In this document: piece after piece, positions 478-24,020 of the stretch
Numbering within the stretch: position 1 is the stretch's first letter
How the letters are laid out: the number at the start of each line of letters is the position of its first letter
NCBI GenBank assembly: GCA_028565715.1
Contig: JAOXYC010022234.1
Coordinates: 1-24,670, forward strand
Length of the DNA stretch: 24,670 nt
Reading direction: 5' to 3'
Origin: Phoronis pallida
Taxonomy: Eukaryota; Phoronida; Phoronidae
Notes under the pieces: model-generated
The model's input: only the letters and a program-made list of their open reading frames with translations
The model's database searches: none
Told to the model about the DNA's origin: nothing
Made by a program: the position numbers and the translations under genes

Positions 478-654
478 TTTGACACACCAGAGCGTTCCCA
501 CTCCACTGCCCACTCGCATTACATGTACGACTACTGTCTCCACTTTTCGGCTCGTATCCAGGCGAACAGGAATATTTAGCGGTGCTTTTGTAAACCGTTC
601 CGTCGTGCGTGAAGGCGGTGTTCTTGTTACGTTCAGGAGTCAAGCAATCGACAG
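478..654 (-). CDS. Exon e32: single CCP domain
   Basis: A 177-bp phase 1-1 exon encoding one CCP that begins VDCLTPERNKNTAF and ends WSGNALVCQ. It carries four cysteines (VDC, YSC, RTC, LVC) and the conserved tryptophan (GQWSG). The donor is GTAAGT (plus strand ACTTAC at 472-477) and the acceptor is TTCCTAG. It is the only one-domain CCP exon here and is clearly diverged from the array units: it has GYEPKSGDSSRTC where the array has GYEPSGGNLTRVC. The position after the three-CCP exon marks the less regular 3' flank of the repeat array. Confidence 0.92.
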
Positions 655-3600
655 CTAGGAAAAATACATGTAACTTACATTAGCCATTTGAGCACATGCG
701 ATGCTAAAATTTCCAGAAAAATAAAAAATGACAACATGGTTGAACGTAGATACGTCCACAATTATAGATTAGAAATTGAGGACACTGCCTTCGTGTCTAG
801 TCTCATGGTTTTATGTAACAAAAACAGTTTGCACCCTCTTTCCAATATATGGCGTCTCTCAGCTTTGCCTCTTTGCATAGAACGAACAATCTTTCAACTA
901 ACACGAAAATCTCCAAACAAATATGGAGGATCCACTATAAGTCTTATATAAATTTACTTACGCTCGCACACTAACGCTGCCCCGGTCCATTGTCTGTCAT
1001 TTCCGCAAGTTCTTGTTACATTACCACCTGCCACAACATAACCGGAGTCACAGCTGTATGTAACATTGTCTTGGTATAGATTACTACTATTCGAGACAGT
1101 GGTGTGAAGGTTGACATCTGGATCACCACATGACACTCGGTTGTTGCATGATAGTGCCGTCCCAGTCCAGTTTCCATCAGCACTACAGACACGCGACACA
1201 CTTCCACCCGACCGTTTAAACCCAGAAGTACAAGTGTACGTGGCAACATCCTCATACAGATTAGTGTCGCTGGATACGATTGTGTTAGAATTTCGATCAG
1301 GGAAACCACAGCTTCGTCTTTGACAGTAAAGCGCAGAGTCATTCCATTGTCTGTCTCTTTGACAGATTACAGCTTCACTACCATTAAGTTTGACATAACC
1401 ACTTGCACAGACAAAAGTTACGATGTCTCCGTTAACTGACCCACTGCTTGTTTGTATAGTGTTTACATCGACCGATAGAGCTACGCATACCACCCCTGTT
1501 GATAAAAGACGGCAAAATAAGTTATATTTTAATCGGACTCAAAGAAACATCAGGCAGACCTGCACTTTCAGAAACTTTATTTGACACTCCCCATAGCTTG
1601 TGAAATACTAAATTTACACGGTGCCAACGTGCATTCAATTATATTACATTGCAACTAGGATGTTGAGGAGAATGTCTGATAACTCAAAGTGAAAACTATT
1701 GTCGTTTATTTACTGATACATTTGTTGTTGAACGTGAGATAATTAACGGAGGAACATACATGTTGAGACGTTCAGAGACAAGAAAAATTAATTTAATCAG
1801 ATCCCAAACTTCTTTTAGCTAATGTACAAGTAAATGTCTACGCTTTCTGGCAAAGCTAAGTCGTAAAAGCAAACTTTATAAGCGAAACTTACCTTCGACG
1901 CATAGTTTCTCATAGTCAGGACAACAATCCGGTTTATTATTGCAACTTTCATCACAATGACAAGCAAATCGGCGGTCAAAAGCAGTGTTACATCGTCCCT
2001 TGCACGAAAATTGCGCTAAAAATGATTGATAATGTAATATGAGTACACGTTTTGGACTATAAAGACTAATGTAGATAGTTCTATTTTAAGAAATAAATGT
2101 TTTGCGTATAATTCCATAGCGACTCAAGTTTTGGACACACATCGTCCATTTTCCAAGCGTAGTGCCCGTATGTAAACAACATAACACAAACGAAGAACAA
2201 ACATTACATAGGGCGGAGGTAATCAGAGCTGTGGAGTCTTCTATGTTGGTGAGACTCGCCGACATTCAGACACCAGGATATTCGAACATGTAGCCTCGAA
2301 CATCTCGATAATTTTACTTATTGTAAAGATAAATATACCATTGGATGTTTTACGATACTAGGCAGTCCAACGCATGTTATCAAGTATTTCATCATTGTTA
2401 AAGTTAAGTTATGATTATCGACTAACTTCGCCAGATGATGGCCTAACGATTGTATTTCTGTTTATGTAATTTTGTTTACCTACGGGCATTTTGGGTTGAA
2501 TGCGGACAATGTAAGTCCGAAACATGAGTCGCTTTGAAATTATACGCAATATATTTATGAAATCACAATAATTGATAAATAAATAGTTAAAAAAACGACG
2601 ACTGGTATTAAAATCAAAACTTGAAACTTAAAAACACAAAGGTATCGGACCTTGTCCTGCCTCTGTACTGTTTCTTTTGAAGCTGGTAACGGCTCACTAT
2701 AATATGTACCTTTTGGTCTTATAGTTGAAATTGGTTTAAATCATAATAATTAATCGATGTTAGCTGTATTTCTTCGTAACAGCTCCATTTTTATTCATAC
2801 CTGAAATGACTGAAACCATTGAGGACAATTTGATTGTTTACAAAACATATTCAAAATGGGATTTCTCCATAAATCAAGTCATAAAACTAGCTGATATATT
2901 ACATACACCGTAAGATAAATATTAGAATTTGAATATGAGTGATATTAAGTGCATTATCATGTTTAACTTACCTTTGCATTCAAGTGCACTCCCAGTCCAA
3001 TTACCATCGGCACCACATACTCGCGTCAAATTGCCACCAATTTGTTCATACAATGGATCACAGGAGTAGTTTACTACGCCTTCATATACAGTTGTCGTGA
3101 TTGAATATGTTGTGAACTTGTTGCTAACTGGCATACCACAGTTTCGTCTTTGACAGTAAAGCGAGGACGCATTCCATTCTCTGTTTGATTGACAGACGAC
3201 TCCTTTACTACCATTAACTTCGACATAGCCACTTGCACAAGTAAACGTTATGGTGTCACCAAAAAGCGTCCTATTGCCACTTTGAACAGTGTTTGAATCA
3301 ACTGTTGGCGGTCCACAGTTTACCTCTACAAAAAGATTACAATCGCGATGTATGCACTATACTAACACTTATTTTACAAGATTATCAATTCGGAGATAGT
3401 ATTGTCGCATATTAGTGAAAGACAAATAAATAAATGTGCCGACAACTAGTTCAAATTACAGTAAGTACAAATCTTTGAATCTAACACGAACTTTATGGTG
3501 CTTTACAACTTCAAAGTGGTCGAAAGCAGTGACACGTTTTTCCACTATTTTCTTGAATGAATGGCAAAAGCAAAAGCCTTTTTTAAAAGGTTTGATACTT

Positions 3601-6600
3601 ACTTTGACATTCAAGGGCACTTCCACTCCAATTGCCCTCAGCACCACATACTCGAGTCAGATTGCCACCAGATTGTTCATACCCTGTGTCGCAGGAGTAG
3701 TTTGCTGTGCCTTCATATAGAGTTGTGGTAGTTGTAAATGATGTGTTTGGGTTGCTGTCAGGGGTCCCACAGTGTCGTCTTCGACAGGAAAGTGAATCAT
3801 TCCACTGTCTGTCCGCTTTACAAACAACCGTTTCACTTCCATTTACTTTGACGTAGCCGCTTGCACATATTAATGTTAATAGGTCACCGTAAAGTGTACC
3901 ATTACCCCTGCGAACAATGCTTGGATCTTCTGGTGGCATCCCACAGTTAACTTCTGCACAAAAATATTCAATAGTCATTGTATAATTAGAAAGTTGTGAA
4001 TATCTAAAAATATCTGGATATTTAGTAATAAGCCACACCTGTATTAATTGAATAATAATAAATGACAACTAGGTTATTATTCGACTTGTACCATCTACAT
4101 AAGTTTTGTCGAAAATACCCCTCGCATGCTTACGTGCTGCATAGGTTCGCTGAGTGCCCGTCAAGGGACAAAGCTCACAAATTGCCTCATTAATTCACAT
4201 TAACATAATCTGATCACGACAAATGTGTCCCGACTGTATTAACTCCATGAAAGAACATTATTTGTTACGAACAAATTGTTCAAAGAGAAGACTATGTTTA
4301 ACTTACTCTGGCATTTAAGAGCACTTCCACTCCAATTGCCCTTAGCATCACAGACTCGAGTCAGATTGCCACCAGACGGTTCATAACCTGTGTTGCAGGA
4401 ATAATTTGCTATGCCTTCATATATAGTTGTGGTTGTTGTGGACGATGTGTTTGGGTTTTCATAAGGACTTCCACAGTCTCGTCGTTGGCAGTAAAGTGCC
4501 GAAGCATTCCATTCTTTGTCGGCTTGACAGAAAATTGCCTCACTTCCGTTGACTTTGACATAGCCACTTGTACAGACAAAAGTTATTATGTCCCTGTATT
4601 GAGTTCCATTGCCAGTTTGAACAGTGGTGGGGTCATCTAATGGTATTCCACAATTTACCCCTGCGACGAAAAATATTTCATTGGGTAATTTCGTTAAAAG
4701 CAGAATATGTAAAATCAATACCAGTTTAAAAATATAGTTACATAATTATTCATCCCACACTATGTAGCCTTAACAGGGTAAACTGCACATATCAGTGATT
4801 CAGAATTTTTTTTTTTCCAAACTTTACGGTTAACTTTCACATAATATATTGGATTGAACACCAAAAAACTTACTTTGACATTCAAGAGCATTTCCAGTCC
4901 AATTTCCTTCAGAATTGCAAACACGAGTCAGATTGCCACCTGATTTTTCATAACCTATATCACAGGAATAGTTTGCTGTGCCTTCATAAAGAGTCGTATC
5001 TGCTGACACTCTTGTGTTTTCATTTCGATGAGGTGGTCCACAGTCTCGTTTGCGGCAGTATAGTGCTGGATAATTCCAGGTTTTGTTAGCTTGGCAGATA
5101 ACTGCTTCACTCCCATTGAATATGACATAACCACGTGTACATGAAAACGATATGATGTCACCGTAGAGTGTTTCGTTTCCACTTTGAACTGTGTTTCTAT
5201 CAACTGACAGATGTCCACATGACACCCCTGTTAATAAAATAGCAAAATGATGATTGAATGTCGACAAATCGACACCGTGTTTTGGTTTTTAGGTTCACTG
5301 TTTGATATATTCTGTTAAGTCAAGAGATACTGGTTATGTTGACCATCTCTTGCAGTGTTAGCTAAACGTCAACAATAAACACTGAACTAAAAGCTCAAAG
5401 CCTCAATGCAGTGCCCGACAAATAATGGAAAATCAAATATACCCATTCATATTTCATATTCTACAGTATATTTGGGCAAAGACCTGTATCCATTTTTGGA
5501 TGAATACTTGATAAAGGTAAAACATAGTACAGCAAACGTTGATAAAAATATAGGTTTACAGAACAAAGCTCAGGCGAGCGTTGAACAACAATCTTCTCGT
5601 ACCTAAATAATAAGGTAGATTTTATCATAACGGCTGATCTAAGGGTTAAAGGAGCTTGCAAGAGACCTATATGACCGCAAGTTTGCGTGCTCCTCCAAAG
5701 AACAATTGCAAGTCGGATTTGAAAAACCCTGTGAATCAAACCGGTGATCTCTCGATCGATTGTCATATATTTTAACTGCTTGACTTTAGACATTCGCTAT
5801 TCATGTGTCACTTACTTTGACATTCAAGGGCACTTCCACTCCAATTACCATCAGCACCACAGACTCGAGTCAGATTGCCACCAGACTGTTCATAACCTGT
5901 TTCGCAGGAGTAGTTTGCCGTGCTTTCATATACAGTTTTGGTGGTCGAGACCTTTGTGTTGGGGTTGCTGTCAGGGTCTCCACAGTTTCGTTTTTGACAA
6001 TAAGGTGCGGAGTCATTCCATTTTCTGTTAGCTTGACATACAACTGCTTCACTTCCATTGACCTTTTCATACCCACTTACACAAGCAAACGTTATGATGT
6101 CTCCGTAAAGAGTTCTATTGCCACTTTGGATTGAGTTTGAATATAACGTTGGTAAACTACAGTTTACTCCTGTATAAAAATAAAAAAACATATTTGTTAG
6201 AATACCAACATTTTTACGACCAGATAAAGGCATATTTTGGCGTATTTTGTGATACATTCACCGAATCTACCGTTGAATTTTATATCGCATTGAAAGTACA
6301 TAGACGGTTGATAAGAAGTCTCTTTTAAGAGTAATATTCACCAACAATTAATATTTTTGATTATGCAAGTATGTAACATGAGACAATGCCAACAACTAAT
6401 CATACAATTTCTCAATCTAAGAGGTATTTGTATTTAACTTACTTTGACATTCCAGGGCACTTCCACTCCAATTGCCCTCAGCACCACAGACTCGAGTCAG
6501 ATTGCCACCAGACGGTTCATAACCTGTGTCGCAGGAGTAGTTTGTTGTGCCTTCATATACAGTCGTGTCAGTTGAAAATGATGTATTGGGGTTGCTATAA

Positions 6601-15600: not shown

Positions 15601-18600
15601 CGGTTTGATTGACATTCAACCACTTTACTTCCATTTACTTTGACATAACCACTCGTACATGTCAACGTTATTATGTCTCTGTAGAGTGTTCCGTTGCCAT
15701 GAAGAACAGTGCCTGGATCTTCTGTTGGCCACCCACAATTTACTCCTGTACAAAAAATATTTCAGGTTGTTAAATGTGTTTTGAGCAGCTTCCATCACAC
15801 TTGAATGATGGAAAACGTAGTTTGATGAATGTTTTGAGTTTCAACAATGAGTTATTCAACAATAGTATAACGGGTATACCTTAGTTATAATCATTTAGGC
15901 GATTTTGAAAATGTTCAAACAAATGAATTCCGACATGAAGCACCATACCATATCAAGATAAGAATATACAAAATGTCTGATATCACATTTTATAGAACAA
16001 GAATTTATCTCGATCGGGTCGCATTTATCTTACTTTTGCATTCCAGAGCGTTTCCACTCCAATTTCCAGTACGATCGCAGACACGTGTCAGATTGCCGCC
16101 AGATGGTTCAAATCCTTCGTCACACGAGTAGTTTGCTCTGCCTTCATAAACAGTGGTGTCGGTTGTAAATGTAGTGTTGGGGTTGCTATCAGGGTCTCCA
16201 CAGTCCCGTCGTTTGCAGTAAAGTGCTGATGCATTCCATTTTCTATTTGCTTGGCAGACGACCGCTTCACTTCCATTAACTTTGACATACCCACTTGCAC
16301 AAGTAAAACTTATTATATCTCTGTATAGAGTCCCATTGCCAGTTTGAACAGTGTTGGGGTCGTCTGATGGCGATCCGCAATTTACTCCTACATAGATAAT
16401 TAGTATAAATCGGCAATATACCTTCAGTGATGCAAAACTTGTTAAAAGTCAAGTTATTTTGACAGTTCAGACGGAAATAAAGATTCTGAACTGTCAAAAA
16501 AGCTTGTCCTTTAATACGTTTTGCATCAGCATTGATAACTATATAAAAATATTAAAAATACACAAACTTAAATAAACATTCAATGTGGAAACCTACAGCA
16601 ATTCATTACACTTGAGCGCACACATGATAGAAACATATTTCCAACTATCACACAGACATCACCGAGTATTTTGAAAAAAACATCATGTAGGCACAAATAA
16701 ATAGATTCCATACATTTTGGTATACATAATTTCCCGCAATATTTCAATAAAAAGATCGGTTAGAAATAAATTACAAAATTGCCTTAAACTTACGTTGGCA
16801 CTCCAGGGCGCCCCCACTCCAGTTTCCATCATGGCCACATGTGCGACTCAGATTGCCACCAGACTGTTCATAACCTAAATCACACGAGTAGTTTGCAACA
16901 CCTTCATAAACAGTTGTGTCGGTCGAGACTCTCGTGTTGATGTTTCTATAAGGGGTACTACAATTTCTTCTTTGACAGAAGAGAGGGGGGTCACTCCATG
17001 TTCTGTTTGCTTGGCAGACAACTGCTATACTCCCATTGACTCGGACGTAGCCACGTGCACACGTAAACCTTATTATGTCTTCGTAAAGTGTTTCATTTCC
17101 AGTCTGAATTGTGTTTGCATCGACTGTCTGAGGTACACAAGACACTCCTGATCATAATTAAAAAACAAAGATAGAATAATTCTGTGGTTATACATACAGT
17201 ACATGTATTTTACAAATTTATCCAGTACCAACTGATATACAAATGCATTATGAACATCATCATATCTTTGCCCAATTGGAAACGCCAAAGCTTGGATTTG
17301 AAGCAGCAACCTTTTTATTAATAGGCTTAGAATATACCTTCAACCACTGAGCTAAAGGCTGAAATTTATGCACGATATGAGTCTTAACACCATCTAATCG
17401 TCTTATACCCATATTTCATTGCAAAGTAGACAATGCACACAGAGATTTTCAAACATTACTTACGTTTACATTCAAGAGCAATGCCACTCCAAGACCCATT
17501 CGAGCCACAGACCCGGGACAAATTGCCACCAGAAGGTTCAAAGCCTGCTTCACATGAGTAATTTGCAGTGCCCTCATAAACAATGGTGTCGACTTTGAAT
17601 GTTGTGTAAGGGTTTCTATCAGGCATTCCACAGTTTTCTCTTTCGCAGTGAGGGGAGGAGTCATTCCATTTTCTGCTTGATTGACATACAATTGCCTCAC
17701 TCCCATTTGCTTTGATATAGCCACTTCCGCAAGCAAACTTCATGATGTCTCCGAAAAGAGTACTGTTGCCACTTTGAATGGAGTTTGAATATACTGTCGG
17801 TGTTTCACATCGTACTCCTGGACGAACATAGAAAATATTGTCGTTGCATTGAACACGATTTTGATGTATTGTGGTATTTGCAAAAAATGGTCACCAATAT
17901 AAAGTTGTTTTTTCATCGAATTTTTAGTGAAAGCTTGAGCAACAAATACGGAGTAAATATAAATATGTAAAATCTGAGGTTGAAGGCTACTAAACTTACT
18001 TTGACATTCAAGGGCACTTCCACTCCAATTGCCTTCAGTACCACATACTCGAGTTAGATTGCCACCAGACGGTTCATAACCTGTGTCGCAAGAGTAGTTT
18101 GCTACGCCTTCAAATACAGTTGTAGTGGTCGAAAATGTCGTGTGTGGATTGCTATTAGGGCTTCCACAGTCTCGTCGTTGACAGAATAGTGCAGAACTAT
18201 TCCATGTTCTGTTTGATTGACATTCAACAACGTCACTTCCATTTACTTTGACATAACCACTCGTACATGTCAACGTAATTATGTCTGTGTAGAGTGTTCC
18301 ATTGCCATGAAGAACAGTGCCTGGATCATCTGATGGTAACCCACAGTTTACCCCTACATATATAGACGATAGACATAATGTTTGAAAAATGCGAGGATTG
18401 ACAACTCTTTATATCGACATATCTATCTTAAAATGTAATGAGGTTTGTATTGTTGAGTTTTCAATACTTGTCGTTGTGATAGTATTAATACTGCGTTTGT
18501 CACGCCTGTCTGTTCGGTCCGTGTAGTGTGTAAGCTGGAAAACAGCCTAAGAACATTCTCGTTATATTTGTCCACAAGCATTACAGTCGAACTAATTAAA

Positions 18601-21600
18601 GGACACAAAAGGAAAATTGATTTCACACGTACAGAGCACAAAGGAATGAAATTTAAAGACATTGAGAATGATTATCCCCGACTTAATATGCAAGGACAAC
18701 GCATTTCAAGAAATCTTGTAGTTCCTATTATGAACTGGCTTAGGTTACACTGTAACTTACGTGTGCACTCAAGGGCGCGTCCACTCCAATTACCCTTAGC
18801 CCCACATACCCGAGTCAGATTGCCACCGGACTGTTCATAACCTGTGTCGCAGGAGTAGTTTGCTATGCCTTCATATAGAGTTGTGGTGGTTATAAATGTT
18901 GTATTTGAGTTGTTATTTGGGTTTCCACAGTCTCGTCGCTGACAGAAGAGTGCGGAGGCATTCCATTTTCTGTTTGCTTGACAGAGGACAACTTCACTTC
19001 CATTTACCTTGACATAGCCTTTTGCACAGACAAGGGCTATCGTGTCTCTGTACAAAGTTCCACTGTTAAGTTGAATAGTGTTTGGATCATCTGATGGCGA
19101 CCCACAGTTCACTCCTGCAAAGAGATATGTTTATTTTAAATATATTGCTGCAAAGGGCACTTAAATAAGCTTTACAAGATGTAAATAGGATTGTTGTCTT
19201 GTCTATGTTCCGACAGCTGTAGGAACATAGAGCTGTCAAGATATAGAGCTGTCGGAACATAGAACCTTTTAGAGAAATAAAAAAGGTTCCGTGTTCCAAA
19301 CATTGTTCGGAATATAGAGCTGTCGGAATATAGACCTGTCCGAACATAGAGCTGTCGGAATATAGAGCTATAGTCCCATTAAACAACAGACAGGCGGGAA
19401 TTGTACTGGGAAAATTATATATTTCAATACTAGAACGTCAGTCCTAAAGCTTTTTTAGTTGTTGTTATTAAAAAGAATTTTTGATGACACATTTAGGTGT
19501 TTAAAACCAGAGTTGACTGTTTCCTGATATTTTTATGGTAGCTTAAAATCTAGTAATTCAAGACAATTAGTTTTGAAAATCAATGTGCTAGACATGGGAG
19601 TAAACCAATGTATTGTAAGGTATCAGGTCAGTTGCCCTATAGTGATGCTCAAAATGCAGGCTTAGAGTAAAACACTCACATTATAAAGTTTTAGTTTAAT
19701 CAAGATTAAGCAGACTACTGGTCTAAACCTTACTTTGGCATTGAAGAGCAGACCCGCTCCAGTTCCCATCGTGACCACATTCTCGAGTCAGATTGCCACC
19801 AGACGGTTCATAACCGGTGTCGCAGGAGTAGTTTGCTATGCCTTCATATACAGTTGTGGTGGTTGACACGCTTGTGTTGACGTTTCGATGGGGGGTTCCA
19901 CAGTCTCGTCGTCGACAATACAGTGGTGAATAACTCCACGTTTTGTTTGCTTGACAGACAACTGATTTACTCCCGTTGAATTGGACATAACCACGTGCAC
20001 ACGAAAATGTTATGATGTCTCCGTAAAGTGTTTCATTTCCAGTCTGCATTGTGTTTTTATCAACTGATGGATTTCCACATGATACCCCTGTTAAAACAGA
20101 GCAAACAAATGATTGCGTATCATCTAACATCCCTGTATATGTATGTTTAACAACATAAACTTTTTTAAAGCTAAAGATTAAATAACACCAACTCAGCTGA
20201 CTGATTTAAAAACCATCGGAAAACCCGATGAAAGTCACATCTGATGGTTATCAATGGCACCGACGGATGAGGTATCTCGCAAAGTCGCAAAACATGAGCA
20301 TGTATGCATGTTTAATATCATATGCAACTTGTATGAGCGGGTTTTCTTTTTGACTTGCCTTTACCGACCATACCAGCACAAACTCAGGTAGAGAGCATTC
20401 TAATCACAGTCAGACTTTATAAAGGAATTTACCAACCTGATACAAATAAACTCAAGCAAACATGATTGATAAAAGAGCTACTGCCACATAAAGCATGTAA
20501 GCAAACCTGACATTGTGCTTTCACTTACTTCTGCATTCAAGGGCATTATCACTCCAATTGCCCTCAGCTTCACAGACTCGAGTCAGATTACCACCAGACT
20601 GTTCATAACCTGTGTCGCATGAGTAGTTTGCTGTGCCTTCATATACAGTTGTGGTGGTTGTAAATGATGTGTTTGGGTTACTATCAGGTTTTCCACAGCT
20701 TCGTCTTTGACAGTGAGGGGAGGAGTCATTCCAGTTTCTGTTTGATTTACATCGAATAGCTTCACTTCCATTGACTTTCACATAGCCACTTGTGCAAACG
20801 AATGTAATGATGTCCCCAAAACGAGTTCCATTGCCGCTTTGAATAGAGTTTGGGTAAACAACTGGAGTTCTACATTTTACTTCTGGAAAAGGACAAAAAG
20901 ATGCTGTGTTAAAAGTCACATAATTAAAGAAATGAGAATACTAAGGCGTATTTGGTGATTAACAAAACTTCACATTCACCGTTATATGAAAAATAAACTT
21001 CCGGTCGTCCATTGATCGAAGTACAGGGCAAAGAAGTTATGCTTTTGTCAAAGTATAAAGTTTTAATCCTATTTCAAAATTGAATCGCAGTTTTTAATAG
21101 TAGTCTCATGATTCAAATAAACCGATTTAGACGGGTATGTAACTTACTTTGACAATCAAGGGGATTACCACTCCAATTACCATTAGCACCACAGACTCGA
21201 GTCAGATTGCCACCAGATGGTTCATAACCTGTGTCGCAGGAGTAGTTTGCTCTGCCTTCATAAACAGTTGTAGTTGTTAAAAACGTTGTGTGGAGGTTGC
21301 TATCTGGATTCCCACAGTCTCGTCTTTGACAGAAAAGCGCAGAGGCATTCCATTGCCTGGTCGATTCACATAGAACTACTTCGCTCCCATTGACTTTAAC
21401 ATAACCACTTGCACAAGTCAGCGAAATTATGTCTCTGTAAAGTGTTCCATTGCCATGAAGAACGGTACCTGGATCATTTGTTGGCAACCCACAGTTTACC
21501 CCTGCACAAACATTTGCAATTACATTATTATGTAAGTTTTCAAATTATGTAACTGCCAAAAGCCAGTAATTTTCCGAAGACATGAACAATCATGACATTC

Positions 21601-24020
21601 TGATAACATCAATTGTTTAGAAACATTTTCCACAAATTGGTTGAAGACACTGTATCAATATGCCAACCTGGATACGTGAATTGACTGATCACGAAACGGT
21701 TTGTATAACTACATTGTAACTGACATTATTAAAAGGAATTAAATAAATTAATGGAACTTTTCTTCAATACCTGCATCAACTGGATGATTAAAAATATCCA
21801 TGGTGGTAACTGGCATTATTTATTAAAAAGTCCGATTTCAGTATTCACTCCATTTGTTACGTACACGTGTAACACTGCCCACGAACTGGGCTTGATGTGA
21901 AACAAAACATCAGTATGCATTTATAGATGATAAAAGGTTGTGTAATTCAAAGTTCGTGTTTACGAAACACTATTTTTTTGGTTTTGGTAGATCATATTTG
22001 TTCTATCTTACTTTGGCATTTAAGGGCCTTCCCACTCCAATTGCCCTCAGCACCACAGACTCGAGTCAGATTGCCACCAGACTGTTCAAAGCCAGTGTCA
22101 CAAGAGTAGTTTACTATGCCTTCATATACCGTCGAGGTAGTTGTATACGTTGTGTTGGGGTTGCTATCAGGGTTTCCACATTCTCGTCTTCGGCATTGAA
22201 GTGCTGAGTCATTCCAATGTCTGTCTGATTGACATGTGATTGCTTTACTCCCATTAACTTCTACATAGCCTCGAACACAATCAAGAAACATAGTATCTTC
22301 GTAAAGAGTTCCAGTGCCGGTCTTAATTATGTTGGGTTCATCTGATGGCGATCCACAGTTTACTCCTATATGGAAAGTAGATTGAGTATACTTTGGCAAC
22401 AGATTTTCATCAATGCAGCGTTTGTTAAAAACCTGACTGGTTTCATTATTTACGATTTACGGAATTGCCTTCTGTCATCAGCAGGCAAGGTGTATAAAAT
22501 GTGCTCAATGTTCATCACGATAAAACACACAGAAATAAGACCATAGCACGAGTATATTTAATATTCCTGGTACTTATACTTGTACAAATACGCATATGTT
22601 ATCATCGAAGGAAACCTTTAAAATGACAATGAGCGCTATGGCGCTATACAGGTGTGACATTAACCCAGCATACAAACATACAGTGAAGATACGCATCGAC
22701 ATCTATCGGTTAAAAGAAAAATACAAAATTTGACATGATTCTATGACTATACTGACGTAATGAGCCTAGGAATAGAACATCAAAATTCGCCCGTTATCCT
22801 GGTGATTTAATCCACGGTTTTCAAAATGAATAACCAGGGCCTCTAACAAGTTGATTAAGTAAATTTTTTCAACGGTAGAGAGTGACATACGTACTGCAGT
22901 TGTACGCGGGCAAACACATTGTCATATTTTAGATTATTCAACGAAAATCTACTCTCTCATAAAACTCAAACCCGTGTTTCCAAACCATCTTTAACTTACT
23001 TTGACATCCTAGGGCAGTCCCGTTCCAGTTTCCATCAGGTTCACAGAAACGGACCAGATTCCCACTTGACTGTTCATAACCTGTGTCACAGGAATAGTTC
23101 GCTATTCCTTCGTAAACAGTTGTGTCAGTCGACACTCTCGTGTTGACGTTACTATTAGGAGTTCCACAGTCTCGTTTTTGACAGTAAAGCGGCGAGTTGT
23201 TCCATGTTCTGTTTGCCTGACAGACAACTGCGTCACTCCCATTAACTTTAATATAACCTAGCACACACGCAAACGTTATGGTGTCTCCGTAAAGTGTTGA
23301 ATTTCCAGTTTGAATAGTGTTTACATCGATTTCCAGATGACCACATGACACCCCTGTAAACATAAACGGAACGATTATTGACGCATGTAGTCTTCTACGG
23401 GTAAAGCGATAATAGCGGGCGCACATATCAGTGCAAATGTCGGAACCTGAATTTATTTGGTGTTAGAAGTATTCAACCAACTTTGTCGATGGTCGAATGT
23501 TTTATGCAGTTCCTTGAGCACTTCGAATAAAAGCTTTCGCCTTTGTTTGCAAATTATTAGAAAGTTGCGCAACCTTTATGATCTTTTGCATAGTACAAGT
23601 GTGCAACAACTATTAGTGAATTTATTGTAATAACTTTATCAGGTTCCACTAAGACCATGGACTTACTTTTGCATTCGAGGGGATAATCGCTCCAAAATCC
23701 ATCAGGACCACAGACCCGAGATATATTTCCACCAGACTGTTCGTAACCTGTGTCACATGAGTAGTTTGCTATGCCTTCATATACAGTTGTGGTTGTTAAA
23801 AACGTTGTGTGCGGGTTGCTATCAGGGTCTCCACAGCTTCGTCTTTGACAATGAGGTGAGGAATCATTCCATTGTCTATTTGATTTACATATGATTGCTT
23901 CGCTCCCATTGACTTTCACATAGCCGCTTGTGCAAACGAATGTTATAATGTCTCTAAAACGAGTTCCATTGCCGCTTTGAATAGAGTTTGGGTAAACTAC
24001 TGGAGTTCCACATCTTACTT
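478..24020 (-). CDS. Giant multi-CCP (sushi) extracellular protein with somatomedin-B domain, internal part of gene
   Basis: This is the span of 32 coding exons read on the minus strand. They encode 62 CCP domains and one SMB domain in roughly 3,700 codons. CCP domains are four-cysteine beta modules used in complement regulators, adhesion proteins and matrix proteins, so the product is probably secreted or cell-surface; the exact role cannot be read here. All introns are phase 1 and short (170-956 bp), so splicing keeps the frame throughout. I see no initiator or terminal exon, hence the gene is partial at both ends. Because no intron shows a stop exon, promoter or signal-peptide exon, I treat it as one gene; two adjacent genes remain formally possible. 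No named orthologue is recognised. For comparison, human CR1 has about 30 CCPs and SVEP1 about 34. Confidence 0.93.
655..961. other. Intron between e31 and e32
   Basis: A 307-bp AT-rich intron. A plus-strand open frame of 87 codons crosses it but shows no domain or coding character. Nothing else seen. Confidence 0.6.
962..1495 (-). CDS. Exon e31: three CCP domains
   Basis: A 534-bp phase 1-1 exon (178 codons) carrying three CCPs and twelve cysteines. The first begins VVCVALSVDVNTIQT and resembles class b units; the second begins SCGFPDRNSNTIVSS; the third begins SCGDPDVNLHTTVSN and ends GAALVCE. The intron just upstream of it (plus strand CCTGTTGATAAAA) resembles that next to class b exon e26 (CCTGTTAATAAAA). 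This suggests e31 is a b-type two-CCP exon to which a third CCP was added. The linkers are SCNNRVSC and YCQRRSC. Donor GTAAGT, acceptor TCAACAG. Confidence 0.94.
1496..1892. other. Intron between the SMB exon and e31
   Basis: A 397-bp intron. I see no coding or repeat structure in it beyond the class-b-like start at 1496-1520. Confidence 0.6.
1893..2015 (-). CDS. Exon e30: somatomedin-B (SMB) domain
   Basis: A 123-bp phase 1-1 exon of 41 codons, too short for a simple ORF search. The translation contains SCKGRCNTAFDRRFAC, then CHCDESC and CCPDYEKLC. That gives eight cysteines in the SMB order, including C-x-C-x3-C-x5-C-C-x-D-Y-x3-C, the family signature. SMB domains are small disulphide knots; in vitronectin this domain binds PAI-1 and the urokinase receptor, and SMB occurs with a sushi domain in SUSD2. 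Here it lies between class a exon e29 and the b-like exon e31. Donor GTAAGT (plus 1887-1892), acceptor TTTTAG. The split codons give Ala on the 5' side and Gly on the 3' side, unlike the basic junctions within the CCP array. Confidence 0.93.
2016..2971. other. Longest intron (e29 to SMB exon)
   Basis: A 956-bp intron, the longest in the window. It holds a possible plus-strand GIY-YIG retroelement remnant at 2230-2310. The remainder is AT-rich with no exon that I can support. Confidence 0.6.
2230..2310 (+). pseudogene. Possible GIY-YIG endonuclease remnant of a retroelement
   Basis: In one plus-strand frame this reads CGVFYVGETRRHSDTRIFEHV. The pattern of aromatic-V-G, then R, then R-x-x-EH is reminiscent of the GIY-YIG nuclease module found in Penelope-like and related retroelements. 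An in-frame stop lies about 12 bases upstream of 2230, and the frame soon ends downstream. If real, it is a short dead fragment inserted opposite to the host gene. The match is short and was recognised by eye, so it could be chance. Confidence 0.35.
2972..3325 (-). CDS. Exon e29: two CCPs, class a (eighth a unit)
   Basis: A 354-bp exon beginning VNCGPPTVDSNTVQSGNRT, with FGD after it as in other a units. It has eight cysteines. The second CCP departs from the array consensus with CDPLYEQIGG where most have CDTGYEQSGG, and NWTG for NWSG. It ends ALECK and splices (GCG, Ala) into the SMB exon rather than into a b exon. It is therefore the last regular repeat unit. Confidence 0.95.
3603..3953 (-). 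CDS. Exon e28: two CCPs, class d (351 bp)
   Basis: The only two-CCP exon that is not 354 bp. One codon is missing just before the fourth cysteine of the first CCP: NDSLSCRRR here against NDSALYCQRR elsewhere. It begins VNCGMPPEDPSIVRRGNGT, a diverged d signature. All eight cysteines remain. The last third is nearly identical in DNA to that of several other exons. Acceptor TGTGCAG, donor GTAAGT. Confidence 0.95.
3954..4306. other. Intron between e27 and e28
   Basis: A 353-bp intron, AT-rich. Nothing recognisable. Confidence 0.6.
4307..4660 (-). CDS. Exon e27: two CCPs, class c
   Basis: A 354-bp exon beginning VNCGIPLDDPTTVQTGNGT, then QYRD where most units have LYRD. The third cysteine context is EAIFCQADKEWNAS. 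The second CCP starts DCGSPYENPNTSS and ends SALKCQ, with Lys replacing the usual Glu before the last cysteine. Eight cysteines. Confidence 0.95.
4874..5227 (-). CDS. Exon e26: two CCPs, class b
   Basis: A 354-bp exon beginning VSCGHLSVDRNTVQSGNET. It has the b-type segment NKTWNYPALYC, which lacks the N-x-S/T sequon found at this point in other classes. The second CCP begins DCGPPHRNENTRVSA, keeping the b-type NTRVS. The following DNA in the intron (CCTGTTAATAAAATAGC) is shared with e18 and, in part, e31. Eight cysteines. Confidence 0.95.
5228..5815. other. Intron between e25 and e26
   Basis: A 588-bp intron. Short open frames occur on both strands but none has domain character. No repeat recognised. 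Confidence 0.55.
5816..6169 (-). CDS. Exon e25: two CCPs, class a
   Basis: A 354-bp exon beginning VNCSLPTLYSNSIQSGNRT, with Ser for the usual Gly after the first cysteine and GYEKVNGS for GYVKVNGS. The fourth-cysteine segment is WNDSAPYC, the a-type SSPHC/SAPHC variant. The second CCP reads NTKVSTTKTVYES, which leans towards class b (NTRVSTD), so past exchange between neighbours is possible. Eight cysteines. Confidence 0.95.
6443..6796 (-). CDS. Exon e24: two CCPs, class d
   Basis: A 354-bp exon beginning VNCGLPTNDSGTVLHGNGT. It carries eight N-x-S/T sequons (NDS, NGT, NGS, NDS, NTS, NYS, NLT, NWS), among the highest counts here. The fourth-cysteine segment is NRHWNDSALHCKRR. Eight cysteines. 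The 3' third is almost identical in DNA to that of the class b exon at 14268-14621. Confidence 0.95.
6797..7200. other. Intron between e23 and e24
   Basis: A 404-bp AT-rich intron with nothing recognisable. Confidence 0.6.
7201..7554 (-). CDS. Exon e23: two CCPs, class c
   Basis: A 354-bp exon beginning VNCGSPTDDPNTVQTGNGT, then LYKDIITMACASGYVEVNGS. The fourth-cysteine segment is RKWNASALHCRRR. The second CCP begins DCGHPDINPNTTYST and has VCDAEGNWSG where most have VCGAEGNWSG. The donor is the variant GTAAGA. Eight cysteines. Confidence 0.95.
7783..8136 (-). CDS. Exon e22: two CCPs, class b with d-like middle
   Basis: A 354-bp exon beginning VSCLPMTVDENTIQTGNGT, a clear b start. The next part, LYTDIITFACVSGYVKANGS and NRHWNGSALYC, resembles the class d exon at 12276-12629 (YTDIITFACARGY, DRHWNDSVLYC) rather than the b-type NKTW...ALYC. 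The second CCP is b-like again (NVHTRMSMGKTVYEAL). This mosaic pattern suggests gene conversion. Eight cysteines. It ends TASALECK. Confidence 0.95.
8429..8782 (-). CDS. Exon e21: two CCPs, class a
   Basis: A 354-bp exon beginning ITCGAPAVYSNSIQSGNKT, then RFRDVIMFICARGY. The RF after the sequon and CKSNRKWNDSSPHC link it to e1 and e5. The second CCP is diverged: NPNTAVITYTTVYEG and VCDHDGHWTLYALECKS, where the conserved NWSGS/N is replaced by HWTLY and the NWS sequon is lost. Eight cysteines. Confidence 0.95.
8783..9251. other. Intron between e20 and e21
   Basis: A 469-bp AT-rich intron. A 66-codon plus-strand frame lies in it without coding character. Nothing else seen. Confidence 0.6.
9252..9605 (-). 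CDS. Exon e20: two CCPs, class d
   Basis: A 354-bp exon with no in-frame ATG, so start-based ORF searches miss it, but the frame is open throughout. It begins VNCGLPSDDPGTVLSGNET and has CESTRKWNASALYC. The CESTR segment is shared only with the class d exon at 21148-21501, marking the two as close relatives. The second CCP reads DCGDPDSNPSTSFTT and ends GNWSGSALECQ. Eight cysteines. Acceptor CTTGCAG, donor GTAAGT. Confidence 0.95.
9606..10062. other. Intron between e19 and e20
   Basis: A 457-bp intron, AT-rich. No feature recognised. Confidence 0.6.
10063..10416 (-). CDS. Exon e19: two CCPs, class c
   Basis: A 354-bp exon with an open frame but no in-frame ATG. It begins VNCGSPSDDPNTVKSGSGT, so the usual GNGT sequon is lost (GSGT). 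The fourth-cysteine segment is NRTWNASALFCQRR. The second CCP begins ECGNPDSNFNTSFTTTSTV and ends GNWSGSALECQ. Eight cysteines. The acceptor reads GTGTAG and the donor GTAAGT. Confidence 0.95.
10417..10875. other. Intron between e18 and e19
   Basis: A 459-bp AT-rich intron with a short TA-rich tract near 10645-10660. Plus-strand frames of 66 and 76 codons cross it without domain character. Confidence 0.6.
10876..11229 (-). CDS. Exon e18: two CCPs, class b
   Basis: A 354-bp exon beginning VSCEPLTVDRNTIQIGNNT. It carries the b-type NKTWSNPALYC. The second CCP reads NVNSRFTVTTTVYESI, replacing NTRVST, and has CDAGYEPSGG. It ends NALDCQ, with Asp before the last cysteine. Eight cysteines. The intron next to its 5' edge matches that of e26. 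Confidence 0.95.
11457..11810 (-). CDS. Exon e17: two CCPs, class a
   Basis: A 354-bp exon beginning VNCGTPTVYSNSIPTGNRT, then LFGDVITFVC. It has GIVCLANRQWNDSAPHC. The second CCP is NCELPNSYPNTTYTVDT and shows the a-type ending NLSRICGPNGHWSGNALECTS. The CETGFKPSGG loop replaces GYEPSGG. Eight cysteines. Confidence 0.95.
11811..12275. other. Intron between e16 and e17
   Basis: A 465-bp intron. Its centre is a repeat-type sequence, (AAT)n followed by an AGCGCTT...AAGCGCTT inverted motif at 11952-11975, described separately. The part from about 12000 to 12270 may belong to the same inserted element. Confidence 0.55.
11879..11980 (-). repeat. Interspersed-repeat 3' tail with (ATT)n microsatellite
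   Basis: On the minus strand the order is TTGTAAAGCGCTTTG, AAAAGCGCTATATAAGC, then (ATT)n. The AAGCGCTT box is repeated in inverted form and followed by a trinucleotide tail. Similar tails are widespread in animal SINE or LINE-derived repeats, which is general recall rather than a search. The upstream limit is not visible; it may extend to about 12110. Confidence 0.5.
12276..12629 (-). CDS. Exon e16: two CCPs, class d
   Basis: A 354-bp exon beginning VNCGLPSDDPGIVLHGNGT, then FYTDIITFACARGY. The second CCP begins ECGVPDSYNHTTFST and ends NALYCSS, with Tyr for Glu before the last cysteine. The donor is the unusual GTAGGT and the acceptor TTGTCAAG, so splice sites are weaker than its neighbours. 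Eight cysteines. Open frame runs past the donor to about 12136, but the CCP ends at the cysteine, so I place the exon end at 12276. Confidence 0.93.
12630..13096. other. Intron between e15 and e16
   Basis: A 467-bp intron. A minus-strand frame of 86 codons at 12751-13011 has no domain pattern and no suitable splice context. Nothing else seen. Confidence 0.6.
13097..13450 (-). CDS. Exon e15: two CCPs, class c
   Basis: A 354-bp exon beginning VNCGTPSDDPNTIQTGNGT. It has RKWNASALHCRRR, as in e23. The second CCP reads DCGNPDINRNTTFVTDT and then IAIYSC, where the usual ANYSC sequon is lost. It ends AVGNWSGDALECKS. Eight cysteines. Confidence 0.95.
13451..14267. other. Intron between e14 and e15, holding a foldback element
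   Basis: An 817-bp intron. Nearly half of it is the palindromic element at 13739-14120. The flanks are plain AT-rich sequence. Confidence 0.7.
13739..14120. mobile_element. 382-bp near-perfect palindrome (foldback or MITE-like element)
   Basis: The left arm 13759-13854 and the reverse complement of the right arm 14012-14111 agree at roughly 90 percent, with one small length difference. The outer ends GATGAGTT (13739) and AACTCATC (to 14120) also pair. The inner part is symmetrical too (AAAGGGGTAAATT against AATTTACCCCTTT), down to the perfect centre CTCGTACGAG at 13935-13944. No coding capacity and no clear target-site duplication were seen. Such snap-back elements are commonly non-autonomous DNA transposons. 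Confidence 0.85.
14268..14621 (-). CDS. Exon e14: two CCPs, class b
   Basis: A 354-bp exon beginning VSCGPLSVDENTIQIGNET, then LFEDIIKFTCARGYTKVNGS. It carries DRTWDEPALYC. The second CCP reads SNDNTRVLTNSTVYESV. The donor is GTATGT rather than GTAAGT. Its 3' third matches that of the class d exon e24 almost base for base, although the first CCPs differ strongly. Eight cysteines. Confidence 0.95.
14792..15145 (-). CDS. Exon e13: two CCPs, class a
   Basis: A 354-bp exon beginning VKCELPTFYSNTIQSGNRT, then LFEDIIIFACTLGYVRVNGS. The fourth-cysteine segment NRQWNDSALQCRRK differs from the a-type SSPHC. The second CCP has TVHTTVYEDIANYSC and NLSRVCGAQGNWSGHALECKS. It is separated from e14 by only 170 bp, the shortest intron in the window. 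Eight cysteines. Confidence 0.95.
15392..15745 (-). CDS. Exon e12: two CCPs, class d
   Basis: A 354-bp exon beginning VNCGWPTEDPGTVLHGNGT, then LYRDIITLTCTSGYVKVNGS. It has KVVECQSNRNWNDSALYCKRR. The second CCP reads DCGNPDKYPNTSFTT, GYEKSGGNLTRVCGAMGNWSG. Eight cysteines. Confidence 0.95.
16034..16387 (-). CDS. Exon e11: two CCPs, class c
   Basis: A 354-bp exon with no in-frame ATG but an open frame. It begins VNCGSPSDDPNTVQTGNGT, the archetypal c signature. It has NRKWNASALYCKRR. The second CCP ends differently from most: CDEGFEPSGGNLTRVCDRTGNWSGNALECKS. The donor is the variant GTAAGA. Eight cysteines. Confidence 0.95.
16388..16793. other. Intron between e10 and e11
   Basis: A 406-bp intron containing a perfect 14-bp hairpin at 16457-16499. 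Otherwise AT-rich, no feature. Confidence 0.6.
16457..16499. repeat. Perfect 14-bp inverted repeat
   Basis: TTTTGACAGTTCAG at 16457-16470 is the exact reverse complement of CTGAACTGTCAAAA at 16486-16499, with a 15-base loop. It is a short hairpin in an intron and no role is evident. Confidence 0.8.
16794..17147 (-). CDS. Exon e10: two CCPs, class b
   Basis: A 354-bp exon beginning VSCVPQTVDANTIQTGNET, then LYEDIIRFTCARGYVRVNGS. It has NRTWSDPPLFC. The second CCP begins NCSTPYRNINTRVSTDT, with Ser for Gly after its first cysteine, and reads NLSRTCGHDGNWSGGALECQ. It ends in C, so the junction codon with e11 is CGA (Arg). Eight cysteines. Confidence 0.95.
17148..17463. other. Intron between e9 and e10, holding a SINE copy
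   Basis: A 316-bp intron. About half is a minus-strand tRNA-derived SINE copy (17195-17362). Confidence 0.6.
17195..17362 (-). mobile_element. tRNA-derived SINE copy, degenerate
   Basis: On the minus strand there is an A-box-like TAGCTCAGTGG (plus 17344-17354) and a B-box-like GCTTCAAATCC (plus 17294-17304) in tRNA-like spacing. These are followed by GTTTCCAATTGGGCAAA. The copy at the right end of the window has the same order with GTTTCCTACTGGGCTAA. A shared non-tRNA body after a tRNA head argues for one SINE family. End points are approximate. Confidence 0.55.
17464..17817 (-). CDS. Exon e9: two CCPs, class a
   Basis: A 354-bp exon beginning VRCETPTVYSNSIQSGNST, then LFGDIMKFACGSGYIKANGS. 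It has SRKWNDSSPHCERE, where the usual QRR linker is ERE. The second CCP has KVDTIVYEGTANYSC and the a-type ending CEAGFEPSGGNLSRVCGSNG. It ends in C, giving CGA (Arg) at the junction with e10. Eight cysteines. Confidence 0.95.
18000..18353 (-). CDS. Exon e8: two CCPs, class d
   Basis: A 354-bp exon beginning VNCGLPSDDPGTVLHGNGT, the archetypal d signature, then LYTDIITLTC. It has NRTWNSSALFCQRR. The second CCP reads DCGSPNSNPHTTFST and VFEG, where nearly all others have VYEG. Eight cysteines. Confidence 0.95.
18354..18760. other. Intron between e7 and e8
   Basis: A 407-bp intron. Frames of 79 (minus) and 104 (plus) codons overlap it, but the plus-strand frame runs into the antisense of exon e7 and has no domain. 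Nothing else seen. Confidence 0.6.
18761..19114 (-). CDS. Exon e7: two CCPs, class c
   Basis: A 354-bp exon beginning VNCGSPSDDPNTIQLNSGT, so the GNGT sequon is shifted to NSGT and lost. It then reads LYRDTIALVCAKGY. The second CCP begins DCGNPNNNSNTTFIT and ends GRALECT. It ends in C, giving CGG (Arg) at the junction with e8. Eight cysteines. Confidence 0.95.
19115..19733. other. Intron between e6 and e7, with 16-bp tandem repeats
   Basis: A 619-bp intron. It contains the 16-bp repeat cluster at 19202-19372; the remaining 360 bases are AT-rich with no feature recognised. Confidence 0.65.
19202..19372. repeat. 16-bp tandem repeat cluster with inverted copies
   Basis: Units of consensus GGAAYATAGAGCTGTC run at exact 16-bp spacing in two blocks, 19222-19269 and 19309-19372. 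An inverted copy (TCTATGTTCCGACAGCT) starts at 19202. Between the blocks, GGAACATAGAACCTTTT pairs with AAAAGGTTCCGTGTTCC. The arrangement can therefore fold into several hairpins. Confidence 0.8.
19734..20087 (-). CDS. Exon e6: two CCPs, class b
   Basis: A 354-bp exon beginning VSCGNPSVDKNTMQTGNET, then LYGDIITFSCARGYVQFNGS. It carries the b-type NKTWSYSPLYCRRR. The second CCP reads DCGTPHRNVNTSVST and NLTRECGHDGNWSGSALQCQ, with Glu for Val before the third cysteine and Gln before the fourth. The donor is GTAAGG. Eight cysteines. Confidence 0.95.
20088..20528. other. Intron between e5 and e6
   Basis: A 441-bp intron. It has a small hairpin CATCGG-AAAAC-CCGATG at 20214-20230 and nothing else that I recognise. 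Confidence 0.6.
20529..20882 (-). CDS. Exon e5: two CCPs, class a
   Basis: A 354-bp exon beginning VKCRTPVVYPNSIQSGNGT, then RFGDIITFVC. VYPNSIQ with GNGTRF is shared with e1 only. It has CKSNRNWNDSSPHC. The second CCP reads SCGKPDSNPNTSFTT and VCEAEGNWSDNALECR. The adjoining intron at 20883-21103 is homologous to that beside e1. Eight cysteines. Confidence 0.95.
20883..21103 (-). repeat. Intron segment duplicated beside e1
   Basis: This sequence aligns along its length with 24021-24211. Shared strings include GAGAATACTAAGGCGTAT and GCTTTTGTCAAAGTA, and both copies end CAGTTTTTAATAGTA. The copy at e1 lacks about 30 bases near its start. It records a block duplication that copied an a exon with its 5' intron. 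Confidence 0.85.
21148..21501 (-). CDS. Exon e4: two CCPs, class d
   Basis: A 354-bp exon beginning VNCGLPTNDPGTVLHGNGT, then LYRDIISLTCASGY. It has CESTRQWNASALFC; the CESTR string is shared with e20. The second CCP reads DCGNPDSNLHTTFLT and ends GANGNWSGNPLDCQ, with Pro-Leu-Asp in place of Ala-Leu-Glu. Six N-x-S/T sequons. Eight cysteines. Confidence 0.95.
21502..22011. other. Intron between e3 and e4
   Basis: A 510-bp AT-rich intron with no recognisable feature. Confidence 0.6.
22012..22365 (-). CDS. Exon e3: two CCPs, class c
   Basis: A 354-bp exon beginning VNCGSPSDEPNIIKTGTGT, in which the GNGT sequon is lost. It continues LYEDTMFLDCVRGYVEVNGS. The segment SDRHWNDSALQC is closer to class d than to the c-type RKWNAS, hinting at exchange. 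The second CCP reads ECGNPDSNPNTTYTTTST and CDTGFEQSGG, ending KALKCQ. Donor GTAAGA. Eight cysteines. Confidence 0.95.
22366..22999. other. Intron between e2 and e3
   Basis: A 634-bp AT-rich intron. No exon, element or ordered repeat recognised on either strand. Confidence 0.6.
23000..23353 (-). CDS. Exon e2: two CCPs, class b
   Basis: A 354-bp exon beginning VSCGHLEIDVNTIQTGNST. It has NRTWNNSPLYCQKR. The second CCP reads DCGTPNSNVNTRVSTDT, the fullest b signature, but its last third is unusual: SSGNLVRFCEPDGNWNGTALGC. The NLT and NWS sequons are lost, an NGT is gained, and Gly replaces Glu before the last cysteine. Eight cysteines remain. Confidence 0.95.
23354..23666. other. Intron between e1 and e2
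   Basis: A 313-bp intron. Nothing recognisable. Confidence 0.6.
23667..24020 (-). CDS. Exon e1 (5'-most visible): two CCPs, class a
   Basis: A 354-bp exon beginning VRCGTPVVYPNSIQSGNGT, then RFRDIITFVCTSGY. It has CKSNRQWNDSSPHC. The second CCP reads SCGDPDSNPHTTFLT and ends NISRVCGPDGFWSDYPLEC, in which the usual NWSG sequon is replaced by FWSD. Its closest relative in exon and intron is e5. Because it starts in phase 1 with an AG acceptor (TTTCCAG), at least one more exon lies upstream beyond the window. Eight cysteines. Confidence 0.95.

Follow-up and report, generated by a model that had tools for sequence, protein, structure and literature searches.

Organization of the locus

The stretch of DNA analysed here, referred to as the window, is 24,670 bp long and makes up an entire contig (C25); the gene that it carries therefore lacks both of its ends. 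On the minus strand lie 29 exons, each encoding a pair of CCP modules, which together span positions 2972-24020. Twenty-eight of them measure 354 bp, and the remaining one, exon 28 (3603-3953), is one codon shorter at 351 bp; these values, taken from the extracted exons, confirm the span and the exon lengths given in an earlier account made from the DNA letters (the sequence-only reading). Every two-CCP exon of the array begins and ends in phase 1, and all 29 have an open reading frame and AG/GT flanks. Each of the 40 introns examined, 28 in the window and 12 on a second contig (C258), starts with GT and ends with AG, and the donor is GTAAG at 26 of the 28 window introns. On the 3' side of exon 29 the same gene continues with a three-CCP exon and then a single-CCP exon, and by exon count the window encodes 62 CCPs. 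The exons, with the class of each array exon, are as follows.

23667..24020, minus strand, exon 1, class a, two CCPs, 354 bp
23000..23353, minus strand, exon 2, class b
22012..22365, minus strand, exon 3, class c
21148..21501, minus strand, exon 4, class d
20529..20882, minus strand, exon 5, class a
19734..20087, minus strand, exon 6, class b
18761..19114, minus strand, exon 7, class c
18000..18353, minus strand, exon 8, class d
17464..17817, minus strand, exon 9, class a
16794..17147, minus strand, exon 10, class b
16034..16387, minus strand, exon 11, class c (exon modelled with AlphaFold)
15392..15745, minus strand, exon 12, class d
14792..15145, minus strand, exon 13, class a
14268..14621, minus strand, exon 14, class b
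13097..13450, minus strand, exon 15, class c
12276..12629, minus strand, exon 16, class d
11457..11810, minus strand, exon 17, class a
10876..11229, minus strand, exon 18, class b
10063..10416, minus strand, exon 19, class c
9252..9605, minus strand, exon 20, class d
8429..8782, minus strand, exon 21, class a
7783..8136, minus strand, exon 22, class b
7201..7554, minus strand, exon 23, class c
6443..6796, minus strand, exon 24, class d
5816..6169, minus strand, exon 25, class a
4874..5227, minus strand, exon 26, class b
4307..4660, minus strand, exon 27, class c
3603..3953, minus strand, exon 28, class d, 351 bp
2972..3325, minus strand, exon 29, class a (weakest assignment)
962..1495, minus strand, three-CCP exon, 534 bp, phase 1-1 (boundaries by eye)
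478..654, minus strand, single-CCP exon, 177 bp, phase 1-1 (boundaries by eye)

The window holds 53 frames of at least 90 residues, 30 of which contain CCP exons; six of the 23 others were scanned against Pfam and matched no family at the cut-off, with three weak sub-threshold matches. No stop exon was found in the window after the single-CCP exon at 478-654, and neither a signal peptide nor a membrane anchor was found in this gene with both ends missing. At gathering scores, nothing in the window matched Rfam. Tandem Repeats Finder returned three short rows only, the unit of the array exceeding the 500-base limit of the run; two short tandem repeats of period 16 lie at 19215-19369, within the intron that separates exon 6 from exon 7. 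The assembly data searched were those of a partial assembly (11.7 Mb in 933 contigs), for which 134 Sushi matches are listed, 62 of them in the window and 27 on C258, as counted by hand from the genome profile scan.

We also noted a mitochondrial contig of 16,147 bp with AT-rich ends (C671; L035, L036), on which cox1 was identified by Pfam and the remaining genes were named by eye from their frames. Its code is best read with AGR as Ser, ATA as Met and TGA as Trp. One strand carries cox3-nad3-nad2-cox1-cox2, and the opposite one most of the remaining protein genes found. Three papers describe a mitochondrial layout close to this one in the chiton Katharina and in a phoronid (PMC3704766, PMC5162086, PMC2678162), from which atp6 and nad6 of C671 depart in their placement. 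On the assumption that C671 and C25 belong to the same animal, the source is likely to be a lophotrochozoan of mollusc or phoronid type.

Four exon classes in strict rotation

Four two-CCP exons make up the higher-order unit that repeats along the array. Exons 4, 8, 12 and 16 places apart have a mean DNA identity of 0.782, 0.779, 0.775 and 0.772, respectively, as compared with 0.719-0.729 at the remaining lags up to 15. None of 10,000 shuffles of exon order attained the observed period-4 contrast of 0.0535 (maximum 0.0190), and among periods of 2 to 8 exons the contrast peaks at four exons, that is, eight CCPs. The sequence-only reading had sorted the exons into four classes that follow one another as a-b-c-d seven times without a break and close with one further a. 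Label-free clustering of first-CCP DNA into four groups returned exactly this arrangement, position modulo 4, with both Ward and complete linkage (adjusted Rand index 1.00), out of 1.7e15 possible orders of eight a, seven b, seven c and seven d exons. With average linkage the index was 0.70, classes c and d being merged except for one exon, and for whole exons it was 0.90 (Ward), 0.57 (complete) and 0.45 (average). Successive class a exons are spaced 2.61-3.34 kb apart, in agreement with the genomic period of 2.6-3.3 kb first read from the sequence.

That reading had also expected the exons to group by class and not by neighbourhood, and this is how they fall in a tree of 42 exons, 29 from the window and 13 from C258, where every class lies on one side of a branch (support 85/76 for a, 98/94 for b, 68/55 for c and 100/96 for d). 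In a tree of first CCPs from the 42 exons and the three-CCP exon, support is 94/83 for a, 99/98 for b, 97/92 for c and 98/88 for d. The first CCP of the three-CCP exon groups with the b exons and with two exons of C258 in a set of 13 rows (99/98). Exon 29 is less clear-cut: over its whole length the closest exon is of class c, and its first CCP is closest to class a by DNA, not by protein. In protein, the window exons are 51-84% identical to one another (class means 0.60-0.77); exon copies within a class differ by 14-28% in DNA, and eight of the ten strongest class-diagnostic columns are found in columns 2-15 of the first CCP.

Class identity differs between the two CCPs of an exon

The first CCP carries a strong class identity, of which very little is left in the second, synonymous sites included. 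The nearest neighbour is of the same class for 29 of 29 first CCPs by DNA and 28 of 29 by protein, and for 17 of 29 second CCPs by DNA and 14 of 29 by protein. Eight position-specific clades, one for each CCP of the unit, had been anticipated from the sequence; the first CCPs do form four class groups, but the tree of the 42 second CCPs requires 12 class changes where the minimum is 3 (shuffled labels average 21.8). Residual class signal in that tree is strongest in b, with 2 changes, and present in a (6 changes against 9.8 shuffled); in d it is weak, 10 of 500 shuffles needing no more than its 6 changes, and in c, where 82 of 500 needed no more than 7, it lacks significance. An AU test on second CCPs rejected a clade of class a (p 0.031) and did not reject clades of b, c and d (0.24, 0.079 and 0.15), and the second-CCP data for these three classes are therefore weak, not contrary. 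The second CCPs show a period-4 contrast of 0.0197, as high in 0 of 3000 shuffles.

Synonymous difference in the first CCPs is 0.472 within classes and 0.582 between them; in the second CCPs the corresponding values are 0.445 and 0.463, a contrast of 0.018 that was equalled or exceeded in 8 of 1000 shuffles. As within-class divergence is alike in both CCPs, the near lack of a between-class excess in the second does not come from too little divergence. Followed along the exon in nine steps of 13 codons, the class contrast at third positions is 0.126, 0.160, 0.070, 0.040, 0.029, 0.042, 0.007, -0.005 and 0.026 (shuffles as high, of 1000: 0, 0, 0, 1, 3, 3, 247, 724 and 38), high in codons 1-26 and practically nil in codons 79-104. 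The class signal reappears in the intron bases next to the exon at each end (no shuffle of 200 reached it at either, the two contigs being pooled), and its loss inside the second CCP together with its return in the flanking intron fits exchange tracts at this place. A recombination test by class was significant for b and c (0 of 300 permutations each) but not for a (48 of 300) or d (160 of 300); the results for all 42 exons (37 of 500) and for the 29 window exons (29 of 500) were marginal.

The second CCPs have thus likely been homogenised across the classes. That they resemble one another through stronger constraint, with no part played by gene conversion, appears to us rather improbable, even though their mean protein identity is 0.65-0.81 both within and between classes, the AU test rejects the class a clade only, and the outcome of the recombination test is mixed. 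The synonymous sites speak against it: within classes the second CCPs have diverged nearly as far as the first, only the between-class excess being nearly absent, and since constraint on the protein does not remove class signal at synonymous sites, its near loss there argues against such constraint as the cause.

The encoded protein

Pfam Sushi (PF00084) scored above the cut-off in all five ORFs given, three of them from the window, and was the sole family above the cut-off in the 12 frames reported. Four Cys per module are invariant across the 22 rows of an alignment (A1) made up of 12 of the 29 window exons, 6 of the 13 C258 exons and one sequence each from C908, C550, P0001 and P0002. An AlphaFold model of exon 11 based on a 22-sequence alignment has a mean pLDDT of 95.1 and a pTM of 0.74; the best 50 Foldseek rows include human CD55 CCP3-4 (TM 0.86), C1s, MASP-2 and beta-2-glycoprotein I, and within these rows identity to solved CCP structures is 17-29%. 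By Pfam, AlphaFold and Foldseek, the modules are ordinary CCP modules. Mean dN/dS is about 0.25, with purifying selection acting on the exons as a set.

The 3,392 residues of the 29 exons contain 188 N-X-S/T sequons, against 58.5 +/- 6.5 in shuffled sequences, and all 42 exons contain 264, against 80.8 +/- 7.3 (maximum 103; C, W and G held fixed). This density, more than three times that of the shuffles, is concentrated at conserved columns: sequons occur at columns 17, 37, 51, 85, 98 and 108 in 36, 40, 34, 40, 41 and 31 of the 42 exons, and more rarely at columns 70 and 47 (19 and 9 of 42). N-W-S, common at column 108, is a poor glycosylation acceptor. In the window, the column 51 sequon is present in 2 of 7 class b exons and that of column 47 in 5 of 7, and all seven class c exons have the one at column 70, so that the glycan pattern predicted from these motifs would vary by class.

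A protein search with one exon gave 2 matches of 2 candidates, and a search with alignment A1 gave 5 of 166, the last two of which (P0004 and P0005) look like general CCP proteins. Over the full length of exon 11, the two-CCP frames P0001, P0002 and P0003 match it at 70, 62 and 62% identity; they contain 7, 6 and 4 sequons, 16 of these 17 at columns used in the array; their contigs, of 716, 510 and 2949 bases, are too short for a higher-order unit of the size found in the array. Two scans of viral contigs detected no relative. Other CCP exons were seen in passing. Those on C908 and C550 (L011 5067-8010; L023 608-982) are 39-52% identical to exon 11, and the two counted for sequons have 2 and 5. 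C5 and C236, both with CCP exons (L013 7160-10000; L016 9966-6873), are 79-93% alike piecewise over more than 2 kb and may be alleles or recent paralogues. C395, C812, C12 and C21 (L014, L017, L018, L022), all Sushi-positive, have DNA pieces in common that are 75-88% alike, and probably represent another CCP gene family.

Among solved chains, CR1 is the best sequence match, and CR2, factor H and CD55 are also among the top ones. Together with a report of a regulator motif pattern in CCP proteins from many animal phyla, among them molluscs (PMC6683126), these matches would suit a receptor or regulator of complement like CR1, with CCP pairs as binding sites for a C3b-like opsonin and with further sites supplied by the repeats. 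The same source gives the pattern in regulators of complement activation as M5-M3-M1-M2-M4 over three CCPs (PMC6683126). We nevertheless regard a protein of this type as unlikely. CCP proteins match one another widely, and long chains accumulate higher summed scores, which makes the matches unspecific; the A2M family (C3-like, PF00207) was matched in 0 of 1 genome, though such a gene may have been missed in the partial 11.7 Mb of 933 contigs; and the dense sequons, if occupied, would hide much of the surface. Complement regulation is possible, and nothing here is specific for it.

A second array and the age of the units

C258, a contig of 12,607 bp from the same assembly, carries in the same sense a single-CCP exon and three divergent two-CCP exons, followed by the order a b c d a b c d a b; the classes were first named by eye and then borne out by the 42-exon and first-CCP trees. 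This contig may be the 5' part of the window gene. No exons were seen in the facing edges of C258 and C25 (702 and 650 bases), so that at least one c and one d exon would be missing between the two if they were joined. Exons of C258 form subclades of their own in b (100/98) and c (100/100), and its d exons pair at 93/89. Of 780 intron pairs only one can be aligned, namely the introns behind the two c exons of C258, which share 70% identity over 166 bp. These subclades and the alike introns are the picture of a recent block duplication, and the units of C258 are younger than those of the window.

Within the window no introns can be aligned with one another, and within-class dS is about 0.7, which makes its units old. 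A faint similarity between introns of the same class remains (mean excess score 0.67 against -0.04, one-sided p 0.008), and intron length does not differ by class (p 0.26). Distance between exons of the same class hardly depends on their separation (Spearman 0.15, p 0.15). A clade of window-only a exons was rejected (p 0.002), and window-only clades of b, c and d were not; as the a exons of C258 stand among those of the window, class a at least is older than the split of the two arrays.

The sequence-only reading had proposed that the array expanded by blocks in the way of CR1. The period of four exons and the same order on C258 agree with this proposal, but no unit history common to the four classes was detected in the window (r between -0.30 and 0.28 in six Mantel tests, with p at least 0.15 in all), and because block duplication predicts congruent histories, this incongruence counts against block duplication in its plain form. 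It is one of two observations that would suit a period arising from functional constraint or convergence on four exon types, with no copying of four-exon blocks, the other being the crowding of the most class-diagnostic columns at the start of the first CCP. We consider such an origin very unlikely, as class signal is strong at third codon positions in codons 1-26, is present in the splice-adjacent intron bases on either side and persists faintly inside introns, and selection at the protein level does not account for synonymous and intronic signals. An assembly artefact, a row of separate genes or a set of dead copies is more improbable still, for although both gene ends are absent from the contig, the introns are unique apart from the one pair on C258, within-class copies differ in DNA as described, all 29 exons are open with GT-AG borders and a mean dN/dS of about 0.25, and the six non-CCP frames scanned held no Pfam family at the cut-off.

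Discussion

Our best explanation of the data as a whole, which we hold with moderate confidence, is that the window is the inner part of one gene that grew by blocks, that its second CCPs were homogenised and that its product is a long glycosylated rod. The window would belong to a single animal gene whose product is an extracellular protein of great length made of tandem CCPs, with 62 CCPs in the window and 27 on C258, possibly its 5' part. We suggest that the gene gained its length in blocks of four exons (eight CCPs), through unequal exchange or duplication; as all exons are of phase 1-1, whole blocks can be copied or lost with no change of frame. Afterwards or in parallel, gene conversion or exchange would have evened out the second CCPs across the classes, leaving four class-specific first CCPs that would alternate with a common second CCP.

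The product would be an extended, heavily N-glycosylated rod or stalk, either secreted or membrane-bound, and may act through its length and repetition, in multivalent binding, in adhesion or as a protective coat. We infer this function from the length, the repetition, the disulfide modules of extracellular type and the regular lattice of predicted sequons. A CCP is about 4 nm long, and the 62 modules of the window would, fully extended, reach some 250 nm; if C258 and C25 are one gene, 89 CCPs of it have been seen. It is possible, and we put this forward only tentatively, that the protein is a giant CCP rod independent of CR1 whose first CCPs hold four private identities in strict rotation while its second CCPs are gene-converted, an alternating rod of address and spacer with a regular N-glycan lattice and a length that changes in steps of four exons. 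The regularity of the sequon lattice turns the idea of a glycan-covered rod in an invertebrate into a concrete, testable proposal. With seven complete units in the window, two on C258 and some partial ones, there are enough copies for block duplication and homogenisation within exons to be studied separately.

Duplication of exons or domains in blocks is already known from CR1, titin and nebulin. Titin and nebulin resemble the array in being giant proteins with super-repeats of domains, whose periods are 11 or 7 modules; they are intracellular muscle proteins built of other modules, not CCPs. Long runs of CCPs are found in SVEP1/polydom and CSMD (about 34 and 29 CCPs), which also carry VWA, EGF, pentraxin or CUB domains. 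In the frames scanned here, which include six of the 23 non-CCP frames of a gene with missing ends, only Sushi was found at the cut-off. In the titles and abstract starts of the open-licence papers listed, we found no eight-CCP unit of paired-CCP exons in an invertebrate whose class identity is retained in one CCP of the exon and largely gone from the other.

Among the closest parallels is CR1, in which tandem CCPs are likewise arranged in a higher-order unit. The long homologous repeat of CR1 comprises seven CCPs, and the unit of the window array comprises eight; unlike CR1, the array also has in each of its 29 exons a CCP pair of nearly fixed length. A sequon density far above that of shuffles of the array's own sequences may also set it apart. 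Human CR1 is described as having 30 CCPs in four LHRs (PMC5845983). In the array, separate clades for the CCP positions of the unit, as the sequence-only reading had anticipated, were obtained for the first CCPs and not for the second. The two arrays would have arisen independently, to judge from the 51-84% mutual identity of the window exons against 17-29% to solved CCPs in the best 50 Foldseek rows and 22% to CR1 CCP15-17 (Foldseek). The array described here appears to provide, besides CR1, a second and independent case of a CCP array that grew by multi-domain blocks.
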